The notes under the pieces: model-generated
The model's input: only the letters and a program-made list of their open reading frames with translations
What the model was told of the DNA's origin: nothing
Database searches by the model: none
Position numbers and translations under genes: made by a program
Assembly (NCBI GenBank): GCA_012520945.1
Contig: JAAYNH010000056.1
Coordinates: forward strand, 1 to 64,000
Direction of reading: 5' to 3'
Length of the DNA stretch: 64,000 bases
Source: Treponema sp.
GTDB lineage: Bacteria; Spirochaetota; Spirochaetia; Treponematales; Treponemataceae
Shown here: piece by piece, positions 46,987-56,477 of the stretch
Position numbering within the stretch: the first letter of the stretch is position 1
How the letters are laid out: each line of letters opens with the position of its first letter

Positions 46987-48510
46987 CTAAGTCACATCTT
47001 TTGTCGTCATAAATTTATCTGCAAAAAGTCTATATTCATTTATCGGCATAGGTTTTGCATATATAAAGGTTTGAACAGCATCACAACCTATTTCTTTTAA
47101 AAACTCAATTTGACTGGAAGTTTCAACTCCTTCTGCAACAGTTTTAATTCCTAAATCATGTGTTAAGCTAATAATTCCATTAATGACTTGTCTACTTCTT
47201 ACATCGTATTTTCCGGTAAAAAAACATCGATCTAGCTTTAGAACATCTACCGGAATATTTTTTAAGACATTCAACGATGAATAACCGGAACCGAAATCAT
47301 CTAAAGAACATTTATATCCTAGTAAATGTAATTCTTCGGTTAAATCAAAAAGTAATGTCATATTCTGAAAAACTAAACTTTCAGTTAATTCAAACTCAAT
47401 ATATTTAGATGGTACATCATATTCTTTTCGTATTTTTTCAAACTCATCCAAAAAATTAGGTTCCAAAAAATGTGCTTTACTTAAATTGACACTTATCACA
47501 CCAAAATCATATCCAGCATCAAGCCAAGAACGAATGTATCGACATACTTGACGAAAAACAAATCGATCAATTTTAACTATAAATCCATTGTATTCAAAAA
47601 TTGAAATAAAACTTGCAGGATATAACATGCCCCATTCATCATGATTCCAACGAATTAATGCTTCAGCTCCTTGTAGTGTGTTAGTTTGAATATTATATTT
47701 TGGTTGTAAATACACTTCGAATTCTTTATGGTCAAAAGAAGTTTGCATTTTTTGCTGAATTTCATAATCACGTTTTAACGAATGACGAGTATCTTCATTA
47801 TAAAATGCATATTTTGTTTCATAACCACCCTGTTGAGCGAGAGTATATTGAGCCATATTTGCTCTATCCATCATTTTATGAAAATACATTGATTTATCGG
47901 TGATTTTATAAATTCCAACACGAAATATGATATTTGTTTGTTGTAATTCTTTTCTTCCATAAACAGATATAGCGTCCATAACTACTTTAAGTCTGTTTTT
48001 GGTTTCTGTATTTGAAATAAATTTCATAAAGATAAGAAATTCATCACCAACAATACGTGCAACAAACTCTCCACTACTAAGAGATTTTTTTAACATTGTA
48101 AAAATATTTTTTAATGCTTCTGTTGAAATTTCATGACCGAATTTATCATTAATAAGTTTAAATTTAACCATATCAATATATGCAATACAGTAATTTACAT
48201 CCGGATTTTTTTTTAACTCTTTTTCAACATAATATTGCATATATTTTAAATTTTCTCCGTCAATTACATCATCAAAATAAGCAGATTTATAAAGACGTTT
48301 ACGCATATTCTCCTGATATAAAAGTAAAATTAATAGTCCTACTATTATAAAAGCACTGAGAAGAAAATTTAAAGTATTTTTTGAATCTAATTTAATTTGA
48401 AGAAAACATAAAAAACAAATTACGGCAAACAGAATTGCATAAAAAATTTTAATAATTATATTATGCCTTTTAGTATCAAGTCCAACATCTTTAAATTTAT
48501 TATTAATCAT
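46987..48510 (-). CDS. c-di-GMP phosphodiesterase with degenerate GGDEF and intact EAL
   Basis: 507 residues. Two N-terminal membrane helices (about 20-65), a GGDEF domain (about 75-235) whose signature is VGDEF rather than GGDEF, and an EAL domain (about 245-500). EAL catalytic features are present: GAEALIRW, ELTESLVF, SLDDFGSGYSSL and KLDRCFF. It probably hydrolyses c-di-GMP, with the GGDEF part acting as a GTP-binding regulator. 25 bp upstream of hisG on the same strand, though a functional link is unlikely. Confidence 0.88.
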   Translation of the reverse strand: MINNKFKDVGLDTKRHNIIIKIFYAILFAVICFLCFLQIKLDSKNTLNFLLSAFIIVGLLILLLYQENMRKRLYKSAYFDDVIDGENLKYMQYYVEKELKKNPDVNYCIAYIDMVKFKLINDKFGHEISTEALKNIFTMLKKSLSSGEFVARIVGDEFLIFMKFISNTETKNRLKVVMDAISVYGRKELQQTNIIFRVGIYKITDKSMYFHKMMDRANMAQYTLAQQGGYETKYAFYNEDTRHSLKRDYEIQQKMQTSFDHKEFEVYLQPKYNIQTNTLQGAEALIRWNHDEWGMLYPASFISIFEYNGFIVKIDRFVFRQVCRYIRSWLDAGYDFGVISVNLSKAHFLEPNFLDEFEKIRKEYDVPSKYIEFELTESLVFQNMTLLFDLTEELHLLGYKCSLDDFGSGYSSLNVLKNIPVDVLKLDRCFFTGKYDVRSRQVINGIISLTHDLGIKTVAEGVETSSQIEFLKEIGCDAVQTFIYAKPMPINEYRLFADKFMTTKDVT

Positions 48511-48728: not shown

Positions 48729-50312
48729 TTATTTGAGCAAGCTATTTGCTTTACAGTGTTCTAAAGCTTCTTTTTCCCATTGTGCTGCACCCATTTTGTC
48801 AAGTTCAGCAACCCATGCAGTCCAGTTTTCTTTTACAAGAGGGCGTTTTCCTGTCAAGAATTCAAGAATACCTTGTTCCCAGAAACGTTTGAGGTCAGCT
48901 TTTGGAGGAGCAATTGTATCTCCACCGATACATGCAGTCCATGTAAGGCTTTGCATTTTGCGAAGTGTTTTAAGAGCACTCATAGTTTTCTTTGATACTG
49001 CAGTTGTATATGTTGGATAACGTGCTGTCAATTCTAAGTCACTATTATAGAAAACCATGTTACGTAATTGTGTAAGATGTTGGTTTTCCGATTTGCTGTA
49101 GAATTTTGAAGGATCTGCAAGACCTACATCTGTTGGAACTCCACCTGGACCTTTTACGTAGTTAACATTTTCTTTACCGAAACCGAGGAGGTAGTAACCT
49201 TCTTCTGATGACATCCATTCAAGAAGTCTTGCAATAGCATCTTTTTTGCCTGCTGATTTTTTGGAAACAGCATAGATACGATATGCTACATTATAAGGAC
49301 CCATTGATTGTTTTCCACTTGGACCTTTTGGTGCATCAATAACGATGAGCTCACCGTTAGGGAAGTTTTTATCAAAAGGAGCATAGTTTGATTCTGAGTG
49401 AAGAGCTGCGTTTTGTTCACGGAACATACCGAATCTACCTTGTTTCCATGCACCGCGGAAGTCGTCTTTTTTGTAAGCCATCCAGTTAGGATCGATTACA
49501 CCTTCATCCATCATTTTTTTAACAAATTGAAGGAATTCGAAGTAAGCCGGTTTACGAACATTAAGACCAAAATTACTTTTTGAAAGATTCCATGAACCTT
49601 CAACACCGAATGCACCTGCAAGAGGTTCAAAACGGCGACCGAGGCCACCTTCGAGGTTGTTTATTTCAAGGTATGCACCAAAACCGTATGTGTCGTTTTT
49701 ACCGTTCCCGTCCGGATCTTTTTCTGTAAATGCTTTTGCTACAGCAAAGAATTCATCCAAAGTTGTAGGAACTTTAAGACCAAGTTTATCCAACCAGTCT
49801 TTGCGGATTACAAGACCTTCATTTTTAGCAATTGAACCTGGTGAAGCAAGACCGAAATTACCTTTGATTTTTCCATCGTCATAATATGTATGTGATTGTG
49901 CTGCTTGATCATACATAGCTTTTGTACGAACAGGCATTTTTGCAAACATATCACTAACATCTGCAACCAAACCGTTTTTAACAAGATTCAACCAAGCAGG
50001 ACGACTTACCATAAATAAATCAGGAAGAGCGTTTGCTGCACCGGCTGCGTTGATTTTAACGTCTTGATCGTTTGGTGATGATGGGAGAGCTGTTATTTTA
50101 AGATCAATATTTAATTTATCTTTGATGATCTTAATAACTTCCCAGTCTGCCGGTGGCGGACCGGCTTCCGTAACTGCTGCACCATACCAAATTTCAATTG
50201 GTACAGCTCTACCTGACACTTTTCCTGTTTCTTTTCCACCTTCAGCGAAAACAGGGAGAACGAGGCACATTACTATAAGTAATGCTACCAATGCTTTCAA
50301 CATTTGTTTCAT
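48729..50312 (-). CDS. LplA-type extracellular solute-binding protein
   Basis: 527 residues from the ATG at 50312 (GGAGGAAAAAA upstream). Signal peptide MKQMLKALVALLIVMCLVLPVFA, then EGGKETGK; no proper lipobox. Large family-1 solute-binding fold (VPIEIWYGAAVTEAGPPPADWEVIKIIKDKL, ALPDLFMVSRPAWLNLVKNGLVADVSDMF). The LplA/YtcQ class carries complex oligosaccharides such as aldouronates or rhamnogalacturonan fragments to an LplB/LplC permease. It is the last gene of the operon, behind an intergenic hairpin. Ligand inferred only from context (uxaBA next door). Confidence 0.85.
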   Translation of the reverse strand: MKQMLKALVALLIVMCLVLPVFAEGGKETGKVSGRAVPIEIWYGAAVTEAGPPPADWEVIKIIKDKLNIDLKITALPSSPNDQDVKINAAGAANALPDLFMVSRPAWLNLVKNGLVADVSDMFAKMPVRTKAMYDQAAQSHTYYDDGKIKGNFGLASPGSIAKNEGLVIRKDWLDKLGLKVPTTLDEFFAVAKAFTEKDPDGNGKNDTYGFGAYLEINNLEGGLGRRFEPLAGAFGVEGSWNLSKSNFGLNVRKPAYFEFLQFVKKMMDEGVIDPNWMAYKKDDFRGAWKQGRFGMFREQNAALHSESNYAPFDKNFPNGELIVIDAPKGPSGKQSMGPYNVAYRIYAVSKKSAGKKDAIARLLEWMSSEEGYYLLGFGKENVNYVKGPGGVPTDVGLADPSKFYSKSENQHLTQLRNMVFYNSDLELTARYPTYTTAVSKKTMSALKTLRKMQSLTWTACIGGDTIAPPKADLKRFWEQGILEFLTGKRPLVKENWTAWVAELDKMGAAQWEKEALEHCKANSLLK

Positions 50313-50360
50313 TTTTTTCCTCCTTGTGAAATATGAAAACAATTCAAATATATAACAATA

Positions 50361-50407: not shown

Positions 50408-52219
50408 TTAACCCTTAACAGAGCCAACCAATGTACCCTTTGTAAAATATTTCTGAATGAACGGGTAAGCTACAATCATAGGAATTGCAGACATAAATAC
50501 TGAAGCAGCCTTTATTGCTTCAACAGGTGCACTACCAAAAGCAGAAACTTCAATATTTTCACCCATACTAATACCCAACAAAATATTACGTAACAAAATA
50601 GGTAACGGTTGAAGGTTATTATCATTTAAATAAAGCATTGCATGCATAAAGTCGTTCCAGAAAGAAACACCGTAATACAAGCCAATTGTCATGATAATAG
50701 GTTTGGACAATGGAAGAATAATTCTCCAAAGAACGTAAACTTCAGATGCACCGTCTATACGTGCCGATTCTTTAAGTTCTTCAGGAATGCCCTCAAAGAA
50801 ACCACGCATAATAAGTACGTTATATGCACCGATTGCTCCCGGAACGAAAATTGAACCGATATGGTTAATTAAACCAAGTTTTACAATTACCAAATACATC
50901 GGAATCATACCGGTATTAAACAAATACGGAATTAAAATAAATACGTTCAAAAATTTAAGTCCAGGCATATTTTTCACTGACAATGTATATGCCATTGGAA
51001 TTGTCATCAACAAGGCAATAAAAACACCAAAGAACAAAATAATGAAGCTGTTACGGAAAGCCATAAGGAATCCATTATTACCTAACAATGACTTGAATGC
51101 GTCAATTGACCAATGCCACGGAGCTAAGAACATACCACGAAGACCGGAACCGATATTTAAAGATGCATCAAGATCAATTGCTCCTTGAATATTTTTACGC
51201 AACTCAACCAGCGTTTCTCCTGCAACAATTTTACTTTCCAATGATGCAGATAAATTATTCATTACTTTTGCAATATTTTTTGAATTTTTCTTATCCTGAT
51301 TCATTGCAATATAAGCATTCATTTCTTTTCTTGCAACAGAAATATCATCCGAAAGTTTTGCAAGAATATCCATATCAATTTCAGTTTCATTTTTAATTGA
51401 TGACGCAATAGACATGGTTTCTTCCGTCATTTTTGCAAATAATTCGCTATTAATCGCCGGCTCGGTACCAAGGAAAAGAAAAAGTCTTTCAGAGCTTGTA
51501 TTAAGTTTTGTACTCAAACTTTTAATAATCTTTTCATAACCCAAAATCTTTTCACTGCTTGAGCGTTGTTTAGCTTCAAGAGATTTCTTTTGCTTTTCAA
51601 GCTTTGCAGCATTTTTTTCTGCAACAACTTTTACTTTACCATCGGAAACAGCAATAATTTCATCTTGTTCATAAATTGCATTGCGAACAACACTTAACTC
51701 TGCACCATATTTTTCAGCTTTTGCCCTTTCTGTTGCTAAAGCGGAAATTGTTTTGTTTATTTTTTGTGTTCCCTTTATGTTTGAAGCAAAAGCTGACAAA
51801 CTCTTTTTCATATTCTCTTGTTTGAGAATTTCCGTAACAATACCGACTGTAGAAGCTGTTTCTTCGTCCACAACAACTTCTTCAACCACAACATCCGCAA
51901 CATCTTCGCCTTCTGTAACTACAGGAGCAACAGAAATTGTTTTCAATTTTTCATCAATTGAAGAGCGCAAACTCACCAAAGCAACATGTTCATCCGTTTC
52001 ACCCATGTGTTCAACATTTGTGCCAACAAATGACATCGGACGGAAAGCCGTCGTAATTGTACTCCATAAAGGAACAACAACTGCTATAAGAATAAGCACA
52101 AGGTACGTATCAAGCACACGATAAAAAATTTTATCGGCGGCGGTAAGTTTAACTGTAGAAATCAAATCCTTTTCTTTGACTTTTTTAGTTTTTTTAATTT
52201 TTTTATCTTCTGCCATCAT
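50408..52219 (-). CDS. LplC/YtcP-type ABC permease with large coiled-coil insertion
   Basis: 603 residues, about twice the usual 290-310. TM1 lies at about 36-57 and ends TTAFRPMSFVG. A roughly 290-residue helical, Lys/Glu/Ser-rich insertion follows (about 66-360), with coiled-coil stretches such as NAAKLEKQKKSLEAKQRS. The standard permease then resumes (GMFLAPWHWSIDAFKSLL, TM2 at about 388-412) including the EAA loop EELKESARIDGASEVYVLWRIILP. Insertion topology places it on the outer face of the inner membrane. Start at 52219 or the next codon (52216), which is better spaced from AGGAG. Co-operonic with the LplB-type permease 6 bp upstream. Confidence 0.88.
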   Translation of the reverse strand: MMAEDKKIKKTKKVKEKDLISTVKLTAADKIFYRVLDTYLVLILIAVVVPLWSTITTAFRPMSFVGTNVEHMGETDEHVALVSLRSSIDEKLKTISVAPVVTEGEDVADVVVEEVVVDEETASTVGIVTEILKQENMKKSLSAFASNIKGTQKINKTISALATERAKAEKYGAELSVVRNAIYEQDEIIAVSDGKVKVVAEKNAAKLEKQKKSLEAKQRSSSEKILGYEKIIKSLSTKLNTSSERLFLFLGTEPAINSELFAKMTEETMSIASSIKNETEIDMDILAKLSDDISVARKEMNAYIAMNQDKKNSKNIAKVMNNLSASLESKIVAGETLVELRKNIQGAIDLDASLNIGSGLRGMFLAPWHWSIDAFKSLLGNNGFLMAFRNSFIILFFGVFIALLMTIPMAYTLSVKNMPGLKFLNVFILIPYLFNTGMIPMYLVIVKLGLINHIGSIFVPGAIGAYNVLIMRGFFEGIPEELKESARIDGASEVYVLWRIILPLSKPIIMTIGLYYGVSFWNDFMHAMLYLNDNNLQPLPILLRNILLGISMGENIEVSAFGSAPVEAIKAASVFMSAIPMIVAYPFIQKYFTKGTLVGSVKG

Positions 52220-52225
52220 TATCTC

Positions 52226-53158
52226 CTAGAACAAACCTGAATCCGAAACTTTTTTAACAAGCTTATTTGAAACGGTTACAAGCACAAGACCTATTGCACC
52301 TTTAAAGATACCAACCGCTGTTGCCAAAGAAAACTCAAACTCAAGCAAACCACTACGATAAACCCAAGTATCAATAATGTCTGCAACACTATACACGGGC
52401 GGTGAGTACAACATAAACATCTGATTAAAACCGGCATCAAGAATCGTACCGAGACGAAGTAATACAACCATAACGATAACCGGACTGATTGAAGGAAGTG
52501 TAATATACCAAACACGCTGAATTGCCGTAACTCCTTCTACCATTGCAGCTTCAAACAGTGTCGGATCAATACCCATCAATGCCGCAATAAAAATAATGGC
52601 ACTCCATCCCATTTCTTTCCATGCATCCGAAAAAATTACAATCCACGGAAAAGCTTCTGTGTTTGTCAAAAAATCAATAGGTTCGCCACCGAGCATTTTA
52701 ATAATATCGTTCACAATACCATCACCGGGAGCTAACAAAGTGAGCAAAATACCGTACATGATAACCCATGATAAAAAGTGTGGTAAATATGACAATGTTT
52801 GAACTGTCTTACGGAGCATTGGACGTCTACACTCATAGATAACAACAGCAAGTATAATAGCCAAAGGAACGCTGACAAAAAGCTTTCCAAAACTATACAT
52901 CAATGTGTTTCTAATAAGTTCGCCAAAGTAATAAGAACCGATAAAACTTTTAAAATTATCAAAGCCAACCCATTCGCTTCTTAATACACCTAATCCTGGT
53001 GAATAATCTTTAAATGCAATCTGTCCATTCCAAATCGGAAGATAGCGAAACACCAGATACATACAAAAAGGTATTGCAACAATCAAATAAACTGAGCGAA
53101 ACCTAACAATGTTCTTCCAAAAAGCATCTTTTTTGCTATTCAGAATCTTAGTCTTCAT
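52226..53158 (-). CDS. LplB/YteP-type ABC permease
   Basis: A 310-residue inner-membrane permease of the carbohydrate CUT1 family. Six helices, PFCMYLVFRYLPIWNGQIAFKDYSPGLG at the N-terminus and the EAA loop DPTLFEAAMVEGVTAIQRVWYITLPSISPVI. Pairs with the LplC-type permease and solute-binding protein downstream. The ATPase (MsmX-like) is not in the operon, as usual for this class, and is presumably shared. Ribosome-binding site GAGGTT. Confidence 0.92.
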   Translation of the reverse strand: MKTKILNSKKDAFWKNIVRFRSVYLIVAIPFCMYLVFRYLPIWNGQIAFKDYSPGLGVLRSEWVGFDNFKSFIGSYYFGELIRNTLMYSFGKLFVSVPLAIILAVVIYECRRPMLRKTVQTLSYLPHFLSWVIMYGILLTLLAPGDGIVNDIIKMLGGEPIDFLTNTEAFPWIVIFSDAWKEMGWSAIIFIAALMGIDPTLFEAAMVEGVTAIQRVWYITLPSISPVIVMVVLLRLGTILDAGFNQMFMLYSPPVYSVADIIDTWVYRSGLLEFEFSLATAVGIFKGAIGLVLVTVSNKLVKKVSDSGLF

Positions 53159-53219: not shown

Positions 53220-56200
53220 CTATTCCGACCTTCGTTGTGTTTTATTACGAATTTTTCCCGGCGGAACACCGTGAATTTTCTTAAAAACACGACAAAAATA
53301 AGCCTGATCTTGAAATCCTGTTTGTTCGGCAATTTCATAAATAGTGCCGTTTGTATTTAATAATAAATCAGTTGCTAAGGATATTCTATACCTATTTAGA
53401 TATTCCCACAAGGACAAACCCAATTCTTTTCGAAAAATTCGCGTCAAATAATCTTCACTGACATGGACTGAATCCGCTAATTTCCATCGTACAATCTGTG
53501 AAGAAACGTGTTCATTAAGATAAATTATGGCCTTTTTCACTAACGCCCCTGTGTGAGGAGGCAAAATTTCTCCACCGGAAATTATTTCACGAATTCTTTT
53601 TGCAAATTGTGAAGAAGAGGCAACTCCACGATTACACACAAGCAATCGTGGCAATGAACATACTTCTTCGGACTCTTCACTTGGTAAAAATGTTTTTGGC
53701 AAAATAAGAATTGGAACCAAAACCGTATCCGGCCTGCGTCTAATTGCTTTAATTGCATCAATGTCAATTTTTTCAAAAACTATTAAAGAAGGCAAAACCT
53801 GAGTTATCACAGAATCAAAATCTGCCATGGAATTAATGGATATGACATTATCTGAATTAGCCCAACCTTCATATCGTGTAACCATAGCATTTATAAACAA
53901 AACAGGTTCCTCTCGTTTTGCACGAATGGCTTTTTCCAACATCTCAAGAAGCGTTGTTGCCGAAACTTTTTCGGAAAAGCACATAAAAGGCGCCCTAAAT
54001 AACTCAGAATGATTTCGCATTGCATAAACATTAACAATATCCTTCATTGTTGCTTTATCAAAATTCCAAGCAATAATTGATGTCGAATTCTTATCAAGAT
54101 TGATAAATTCATTGTAGTTTCCTGTGTTCTTTTGCACTACAGGCAAATGCATATCGGAAATTTCAAACAAATTTTCAGTAAATGAGATGATTCGTTCCGG
54201 GATTTTTGCATTTTTACACGGAGCAAGCCCCGCAAGATTCGGATAAGGCAAAACAACATGACAATAGTCTTTTTCCGCAATAAGCTCACCAAATTGCAAA
54301 AGAACAAGTTTTTCAGCCAAAAGCATTGACGGCTTTGCCCAAGAATCTACAGGATTTCTATTTGACGTAAAAACAATATGCACTCCGTCATTTTCAAGCG
54401 AACATCTTAAATCTCCGGAATATTCTTCACGTATAATATCGAACGCTTTTTTAAGACGATCCGAGTCTCCATACAAAAGTGGAAAACCAAAAACATCAGG
54501 AATGATTTCATTTAAATGGAATAATCTTTTTTCAACAGCCAAATCATCTACTTTTGAAAGTGTCAAATCAACGAGCATATTTGTTTTTTCCAGTTGAGCA
54601 TTTACTTGAGACTTTACAAATAAAATTTGTTCCACAAGGATATCTTTATCGAATTTACCGTCCTCAACCAAATTTTCTATGCTTTCAAGTTTTTGCACAA
54701 TATCAATCAAGGGGTCGCTCAAATCCGCTCCAATGTTTGAGAAAAATTCTGTTTTAGCATGCTCTGCACGTTCTGCAATTTGTTTTGACGCTAATGTCTG
54801 TTCAAATAAAAAAATTCCATGCAATGAATTACTAACAGCAGAACGTAAATCTTCGTAAACACTTCCGTCAAAAAATGCAATATTCGTAATTATATAACCC
54901 AATGGTTGGTTTTCAATGAATAACGGTTGCACTAAAAATGCACCGGATAAATAATCTTTTTCCAATTCTTTAGGCACTAATCGACCGGCAGAAAACAATT
55001 CCGACTGAGATTCCAAATAAACTAGCGAACCTCCGCTATCACGGGAAAAACCTCCCACATAGCGATAAAATTCATCATTTTCATAAAGAACGATAGAAAC
55101 CGTATGCAATCCAATTTTAGGTAATTGTTCAAAAAGAATATTTATCAATTCTTTACGATTATGTGCAGATAGCAAATCACATTTTAATGAATTTAAAACC
55201 GAATAACGACGTTCAATTTCATAACGCTTAAATGTAATGCAACTTGTATGCACTTGTAAAACCATGTTATAAACGGATTTTATAATTTTTGTAAAATAAG
55301 ATGACACAATTAAACCCGACTCTTGCAACAGGGTAATTGCTTCAAAAACAAAACGCACATCCCCTTCTTTATTAAAAAACTTTGTCAAAAAATTTTCAAA
55401 TAAAGAAAAGAATTTTTTTGAATCTTGTTCAATAAGAGAATCTATCAATGGTTCAACATATGAATTAGCAGCTTTTGAGCTTAAAGATAAAACTTCAGTA
55501 ATTTTTGCACAAATATCTTTTTTAGCTTGCTCAATATTATCAAGACGTGCATGAAAAACATCTTCTGTAAAAGTTACCAAAGAACGACTACATCCGCAAG
55601 ACTCACGAACAATTAATTTACCGGCAATTTTTTTATATATAGCCCGTGTAGTAATATCTTCCAATGTTTCCTGCATTTTTGTAAAAGAAACGCGAGCTAA
55701 CTCTTCATACGGCAAATGCACTGTAGTGAAAGGCGTTGAAAAAATACGACTTTCTGCAGAATCATTAAAGGAAGCAATACGTAAATCTTCCGGAATTTTG
55801 TATCCGTATTTTTGTAAATATAAAACCGCAGCAAAAAGCATCATGTCACTTGAGCCGATTAACGTATCAAAATCCTGACCCGGAACTAAATTTCGTTTTT
55901 CATAAAGCTGAACAATTGCTTTTTCGCCTTCTGTCCATAAAACAGGTTCGCTGATTAAATTTTCATATCCTTCAAACAAAATATTTTCTTCTTTGAGAGC
56001 ATCTAAAAATGCTTTATATCTTTCTTGAGCAGAAACATGATTTTCCGGTCCTCGCAAAAAAGCAATTTTGCGACTACCGTGTTTTTTTATAAAATGATGC
56101 ACTAATTCTTTCATTCCATTATATGCATCAAAATCAACACAAGATGAACCTTGAATTTTATGCCCGATTGTCACAAAAGGCATAGGAGATAATGATTCAT

Positions 56201-56477
56201 GAAAACCGTTTAATTCCTCCATTGAAATAGCTCCACCAATAGTAGAACCCCAGCTTATAAGCCCATCAAGATTTTGAGAATTAGCTAATTTATAAATACT
56301 ATTACGCAAATATTCTGACTCTTTTTGAGAGTCAAGCATTCCACCGGGGAAAATATAAAATGCACCACCTTTACGATTTGCTTGTGAAACCAAATGTGGC
56401 CACAAATTCAGTGCAGTCCCTGTGTGGATTGAAGCGAGAACAAATCCTATGCGTTGTTGTTTTGATTTATGATTCAT
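53220..56477 (-). CDS. LacI-like sensor / pseudo-kinase / pseudo-receiver / AraC regulator
   Basis: A 1085-residue cytosolic protein. Residues 1-300 form a LacI-like sugar-binding module (GPENHVSAQERY at 143-154) without HTH, ending RESCGC at 291-296. Helical linker, GAF-like region (about 430-560), a HisKA-like helical pair (about 576-640) whose H-box reads EFFSNIGADLSDPL with Ala in place of His, HATPase remnants (about 650-745), a receiver-like domain (about 860-970, LPSLIVFEK with Glu at the Asp site), and a C-terminal AraC double HTH (about 975-1080, FQDQAYFCRVFKKIHGVPPG). Heads the transporter operon and presumably controls it in response to an intracellular sugar. Confidence 0.85.
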   Translation of the reverse strand: MNHKSKQQRIGFVLASIHTGTALNLWPHLVSQANRKGGAFYIFPGGMLDSQKESEYLRNSIYKLANSQNLDGLISWGSTIGGAISMEELNGFHESLSPMPFVTIGHKIQGSSCVDFDAYNGMKELVHHFIKKHGSRKIAFLRGPENHVSAQERYKAFLDALKEENILFEGYENLISEPVLWTEGEKAIVQLYEKRNLVPGQDFDTLIGSSDMMLFAAVLYLQKYGYKIPEDLRIASFNDSAESRIFSTPFTTVHLPYEELARVSFTKMQETLEDITTRAIYKKIAGKLIVRESCGCSRSLVTFTEDVFHARLDNIEQAKKDICAKITEVLSLSSKAANSYVEPLIDSLIEQDSKKFFSLFENFLTKFFNKEGDVRFVFEAITLLQESGLIVSSYFTKIIKSVYNMVLQVHTSCITFKRYEIERRYSVLNSLKCDLLSAHNRKELINILFEQLPKIGLHTVSIVLYENDEFYRYVGGFSRDSGGSLVYLESQSELFSAGRLVPKELEKDYLSGAFLVQPLFIENQPLGYIITNIAFFDGSVYEDLRSAVSNSLHGIFLFEQTLASKQIAERAEHAKTEFFSNIGADLSDPLIDIVQKLESIENLVEDGKFDKDILVEQILFVKSQVNAQLEKTNMLVDLTLSKVDDLAVEKRLFHLNEIIPDVFGFPLLYGDSDRLKKAFDIIREEYSGDLRCSLENDGVHIVFTSNRNPVDSWAKPSMLLAEKLVLLQFGELIAEKDYCHVVLPYPNLAGLAPCKNAKIPERIISFTENLFEISDMHLPVVQKNTGNYNEFINLDKNSTSIIAWNFDKATMKDIVNVYAMRNHSELFRAPFMCFSEKVSATTLLEMLEKAIRAKREEPVLFINAMVTRYEGWANSDNVISINSMADFDSVITQVLPSLIVFEKIDIDAIKAIRRRPDTVLVPILILPKTFLPSEESEEVCSLPRLLVCNRGVASSSQFAKRIREIISGGEILPPHTGALVKKAIIYLNEHVSSQIVRWKLADSVHVSEDYLTRIFRKELGLSLWEYLNRYRISLATDLLLNTNGTIYEIAEQTGFQDQAYFCRVFKKIHGVPPGKIRNKTQRRSE

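Follow-up and report, generated by a model that had tools for sequence, protein, structure and literature searches.

Why does one Treponema genome encode an LplC-type permease of 603 aa when its relatives build the same importer with a protein half as long, and what might the additional residues be doing? The question is raised by the window, i.e., the whole stretch of DNA that was analysed (64,000 nt; Treponema sp. GCA_012520945.1, contig JAAYNH010000056.1, positions 1-64,000), which comes from a draft assembly of 119 contigs whose genus is represented by one genome in the comparison set. The open reading frame of this LplC-type (MalG-side) ABC importer permease lies at 50408-52219 on the minus strand; PF00528 (BPD_transp_1) covers its residues 383-592 (41.4 bits against a curated cut-off of 26.4), and AlgM2 (PDB 4tqu) matches residues 362-602 (E=4e-43). 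Three further genes on the same strand complete the operon: an LplB-type partner permease of 310 aa (52226-53158; PF00528, 77% identical to the LplB of the related locus L032), an extracellular solute-binding protein of family 8 (48729-50342; PF13416 at 50.4 bits, 69% identical to the L032 homologue) and, upstream in the operon, a regulator gene (53220-56477; 40-57% identity to those of the loci L032-L038). The order regulator-LplB-LplC-binding protein is identical in the relatives L032-L038. Directly downstream of the binding-protein gene we also observed a 507-aa GGDEF-EAL (cyclic di-GMP)-like protein (46987-48510, minus strand).

For comparison, we collected 36 LplC orthologues of the Treponema family, encoded in the same operon and 68-77% identical to the window protein in the permease body; all 36 reading frames were compared by BLAST, and 20 of them were put into an alignment. 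The orthologous frames measure 297-317 aa and match the body of the window protein from residue ~356 to 603, which bears out the sequence-only reading that LplC is about twice the family length. None of the 20 aligned orthologues carries the additional stretch, and the alignment places it, as had been read from the letters, between an intact TM1 and an intact permease body: an in-frame insertion of 291 codons between TM1 and TM2 (51155-52027, with one copy of a flanking motif counted), so that the limits of 51140-52024 proposed earlier are correct to within a few codons. On one side stand the N-terminus and TM1 (..WSTITTAFRPMSF; residues 1-64, 52028-52219, minus strand, delimited by orthologue alignment and hydropathy), with residues 17-65 showing 63% identity to L032, and on the other side begins the conserved body (IGSGLRGMFLAPWHW..), which from TM2 onwards occupies 50411-51130 on the minus strand and keeps the EAA-type cytoplasmic loop EELKESARIDGASEVYVLWRIILPLS in common with the orthologues. 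The EAA-type loop is the contact to the ATPase. Among the features by which the LplC-type family is recognized, the BPD_transp_1 domain, the EAA-type loop and the partner permease and binding protein in the operon are all present, and the short TM1-TM2 loop of a ~300-aa protein is replaced by a long one (603 aa versus 297-317 in the orthologues). The long loop is a variation inside the LplC/MalG-type family, and membership is not lost.

It had also been asked whether other LplC homologues in Treponema carry the same insertion at the same site. The insertion is absent from all 36 orthologues, and among the Treponema-family relatives examined no second genome with it was found, which leaves the window genome as the only carrier. 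Two apparent cases of further insertion, in G103 (623 aa) and G009 (615 aa), were rejected, as they are really tandem permease genes that share a frame and are separated by stops, and the permeases in these loci are themselves ~303 aa. At these tandem loci (G103:C3:375574-376266 and G009:C19:251262-251996), the open-frame lengths of 623 and 615 overstate the gene length.

The borders of the insertion tell something of its history. The orthologues carry a flank motif once, at the end of TM1, in the context SFRPNTF-IGTNLEGM-FLPPWKW; the counterpart in the window protein is AFRPMSF-VGTNVEHM-[283 residues]-IGSGLRGM-FLAPWHW. The left copy, VGTNVEHM (residues 65-72; 52004-52027, minus strand), and the right copy, IGSGLRGM (residues 356-363; 51131-51154, minus strand, continuous with the conserved body), are the best-scoring and second-best 8-mers of the whole LplC against the orthologue motif IGTNLEGM; each is identical to it at 5/8 positions, the positions being partly different. 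Among 20000 random 8-mers of insert composition, not one reached the score of VGTNVEHM. Since a copy of the motif stands on each side, what took place was an insertion with the motif remaining at both ends, and the novel segment proper comprises residues 73-355 (283 residues, 849 bases; 51155-52003, minus strand). The divergence of the two copies implies that the insertion is probably not very recent.

Could the segment be a reading frame open by chance, or a product of the assembly? It is open in its own frame, the remaining two forward frames containing 16 and 32 stops, and 0/2000 mononucleotide shuffles of it stayed open. Its coding score is high in its own frame only (0.50 bits/codon versus 0.43 for the permease body), and its synonymous codon choice fits the neighbouring genes as well as that of the permease body does. 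Taken together, these observations exclude a chance reading frame. Obviously, with a draft genome in that many contigs, a genus known from one genome and an insert absent from every relative, one has to consider that the assembly merged into lplC a piece taken from some other gene or organism. Such a joint would, however, have had to meet the gene in frame at both ends with a segment that is open throughout and shares the codon usage of its neighbours, and to duplicate a flank motif whose copies then differ; moreover, no second copy of the insert was found in the genome at the protein or DNA level (the DNA matches being short chance matches only), and no source turned up in the libraries searched. 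In-frame ends, native codons and the lack of a second copy make an assembly artefact very improbable, and the native codons together with the duplicated, diverged motif point to a genuine insertion. Nor is a mobile element recognizable in the frame, as judged by the absence of other genome copies and of any domain of a known element.

The search of the insert alone against protein databases, which had been proposed as the first check, returned no relative. With the 291-residue insert as query and a threshold of E below 0.001, no match was obtained in 274 family genomes or 393 sampled Spirochaetota genomes, nor in viral contigs, phages and plasmids, and there was no credible match in Pfam, PHROGs, NCBIfam or the PDB sequences. 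Prokaryotes outside Spirochaetota were covered through those libraries and through a contig scan with whole-protein patterns (some of them insert-derived), which found seven loci only, all of them body matches in reading frames without the insert. Residues 73-355 are thus an orphan.

A number of candidate origins were considered and rejected. Weak matches in relatives (E 0.004-0.6) are low-identity, scattered hits to unrelated reading frames, several with stops, and were regarded as chance. A match to an NCBIfam enoyl-CoA hydratase (E=0.0015) reaches 18 bits, far under the cut-off of 272 bits; a CATRA-C match (E=0.23) and weak PHROG matches were likewise dismissed. Reading the insert DNA in another frame or strand gave no meaningful match to operon proteins or Pfam, and a tandem duplication of the permease is contradicted by the absence of DNA similarity, the hydrophilic composition and the opposite AT skew.

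The remainder of the transporter had been described as normal, and our comparison agrees. The LplC body aligns with most orthologues without gaps and is as conserved as LplB, with no acceleration: in a relative-rate comparison with 21 outgroup sequences, it averages 72.0% identity, versus 70.2% for L032, the nearest relative, and the picture for LplB and the binding protein is much alike. Neither LplB nor the binding protein shows, against the orthologues, a matching insertion or a burst of change, and signs of decay were found in none of the LplC body, LplB and the binding protein. As far as conservation can tell, this supports a working importer, and it bears on the permease body rather than on selection of the insert; relatives through which purifying selection on the insert could show were not found among the 274 family and 393 phylum genomes.

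On which side of the membrane would the additional residues lie? Hydropathy finds no membrane segment within the insert (best 19-residue mean 1.04), TM1 (windows starting at 29-43, maximum 2.3) and TM2 being clear. The orthologue L032 aligns with AlgM2, MalG and SugB from TM1 onwards, and the window body aligns with these CUT1-type proteins and LplC from TM2 to the C-terminus, the difference being that they have a short P1 loop. By the alignment of L032, the loop that received the insertion is the equivalent of MalG P1. In MalG, AlgM2 and SugB this is the first periplasmic loop (P1), by the established topology of the family. Because the aligned loop is periplasmic in all three, the insert should lie on that side too, and we infer from family topology, in agreement with the earlier placement, that the inserted domain is periplasmic.

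As for its fold, AlphaFold2 applied to the insert alone predicted a helical hairpin with helices at residues 119-191 and 194-250 (51470-51865, minus strand), with pLDDT above 90 over ~60 residues in the middle, while most of residues 60-118 and 247-363 stayed below 50; low confidence affects more than half of the insert model. The full-length model, built on 7 sequences and poor overall (mean pLDDT 44), gave identical helix limits for the hairpin, with pLDDT up to 83. Preceding the hairpin is a linker-like stretch rich in Val, Glu and Asp (residues 96-118; 51866-51934, minus strand), of low pLDDT and non-helical in the model. A fold search with the insert model retrieved generic helical proteins only, the best at E=0.025 and none below E=0.001. 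The description of the entire insert as a coiled coil therefore has to be narrowed: the model would allow it for residues ~119-250 at best, i.e., the predicted hairpin, and not for the rest, where pLDDT is low. On balance, we favour, with a probability of about 0.55, the reading that the P1 loop of an LplC that still looks like a working permease acquired, by a lineage-specific insertion, an orphan domain of ~283 residues that is mostly helical.

The roles suggested from the letters, i.e., docking of the binding protein, contact with the cell wall and gating of access, are all conjectures. What such a domain might do can be approached through the maltose importer. There, according to a molecular-dynamics paper (PMC3150292), residues 70-72 of MalG are located at the periplasmic side and directly contact MalE; the title of Daus et al. 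2007, one of the references of that paper, names P2 of MalF and P1 of MalG as regions that interact with MalE. Given that MalG P1 contacts MalE and that P1 is the very loop enlarged here, a role in docking the binding protein is the most economical guess. The insertion would add to the P1 loop an antiparallel helical hairpin of ~60-70 residues per arm, which would sit beside the binding-protein docking site, near the mouth of the permease; as an appendage outside the translocation path, it could touch or tether the soluble binding protein and so alter the efficiency of docking. That the domain acts in this way, like MalF P2 or an extended MalG P1 loop, is a tentative reading by analogy to which we would give somewhat less than even odds.

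A different use of the same hairpin is conceivable, namely as a tether or spacer that places the importer by reaching peptidoglycan, an outer-membrane or periplasmic protein or, through coiled-coil pairing, another copy of the transporter. A long helical hairpin, periplasmic by topology, is typical of structures that reach or pair, but no peptidoglycan-binding or other known domain was found in the insert, the fold matches are generic helical only, and no neighbouring gene hints at a partner. We regard a tether as improbable, and attachment to another part of the envelope as less likely than the binding-protein role. The broader statement, that a newly arisen orphan domain of one spirochaete lineage provides the importer with a long periplasmic helical arm, used either to capture the binding protein or to anchor the transporter to some other envelope structure, seems doubtful to us; if true, it would be a case parallel to MalF P2 and to the MalG insert of Thermotoga, with an origin of its own.

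These parallels also show how far the window protein is an exception. MalG1 and MalG2 of Thermotogales contain a hydrophilic region of ~500 residues between TM1 and TM2, which is similar to no known protein, is held to be a relatively recent acquisition and has an unknown function (Noll et al. 2008, PMC2246101). Judged by this published description, the window LplC resembles them in having a large hydrophilic TM1-TM2 insert in a MalG-side subunit, and differs in that its insert has 283 residues and that theirs belongs to a maltose operon in another phylum; furthermore, the MalG insert is common to several Thermotogales, whereas the present one is so far known in one genome. MalF P2 of enteric bacteria belongs to the MalF-side subunit, where it separates TM3 from TM4 (PMC2246101). 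It is likewise a large periplasmic domain added to the permease of a type I sugar importer; unlike it, the window insert occupies the TM1-TM2 loop of the MalG-side subunit, the two have no detectable sequence relation, and no significant match of the insert to a P2-type family was obtained in Pfam, NCBIfam or the PDB.

A closer counterpart exists within the same bacterial family. A UgpA/LplB-type permease of 532 aa (L069:1048-2643, genome G002) contains ~230 hydrophilic residues between TM1 and TM2, and this type of insert is conserved in 14/145 family genomes; the frames of the 13 besides L069 measure 506-550 aa, and their identity to L069 is 31-54%. Like the window LplC, it is a sugar-type permease with an insert in the same loop in which Pfam finds no domain; unlike it, it is of the other permease type, and its insert is dissimilar in sequence and was not found in the window genome. 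Considering the inserts of Thermotogales, of Treponema and of its order relatives together, the window insertion is real but not unprecedented. The implied singularity holds for the sequence, which among the genomes searched occurs only in the window genome, and not for the kind of event, as large, unrelated TM1-TM2 inserts are present in other type I importers: the window LplC is a lineage-specific case of a known event, whereby the TM1-TM2 loop of a type I importer gains an unrelated periplasmic domain.

That loops of this class repeatedly take up unrelated inserts, in the relatives examined here as well as in PMC2246101, may also be turned against any function. The insert might be a tolerated passenger, a lineage-specific and possibly de novo or fast-evolving helical periplasmic segment with little or no role in transport, which would agree with its being an orphan even within 274 family and 393 phylum genomes and with the observation that neither LplB nor the binding protein shows a compensating change. 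On the other hand, a novel segment of 849 bases has been kept open with native codon usage, and the flank copies, having diverged at different positions, suggest that the insert is not brand new and has stayed open for some time. A passenger is in our estimation rather unlikely.

Together with the MalG of Thermotogales and the insert of L069, the window LplC suggests that sugar importers have repeatedly gained unrelated periplasmic domains in their TM1-TM2 loop. Moreover, the occurrence of the same operon with the domain here and without it in relatives offers a clean before-and-after case for the effect of a P1 domain. For functional work, the conserved L069 family is a better subject than the window orphan. 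Two further observations concern other importer types. In a phosphate-type permease of a more distant relative within the order (L081:1049-3562, genome G588), a PBP_like_2 domain lies between TM1 and the permease body, and this permease apparently has a binding-protein-like domain built in. Finally, three OppC-type permeases of order relatives (L075, L083 and L084) contain TM1-TM2 inserts of ~200 residues which appear, from sequence, to be strand-rich.
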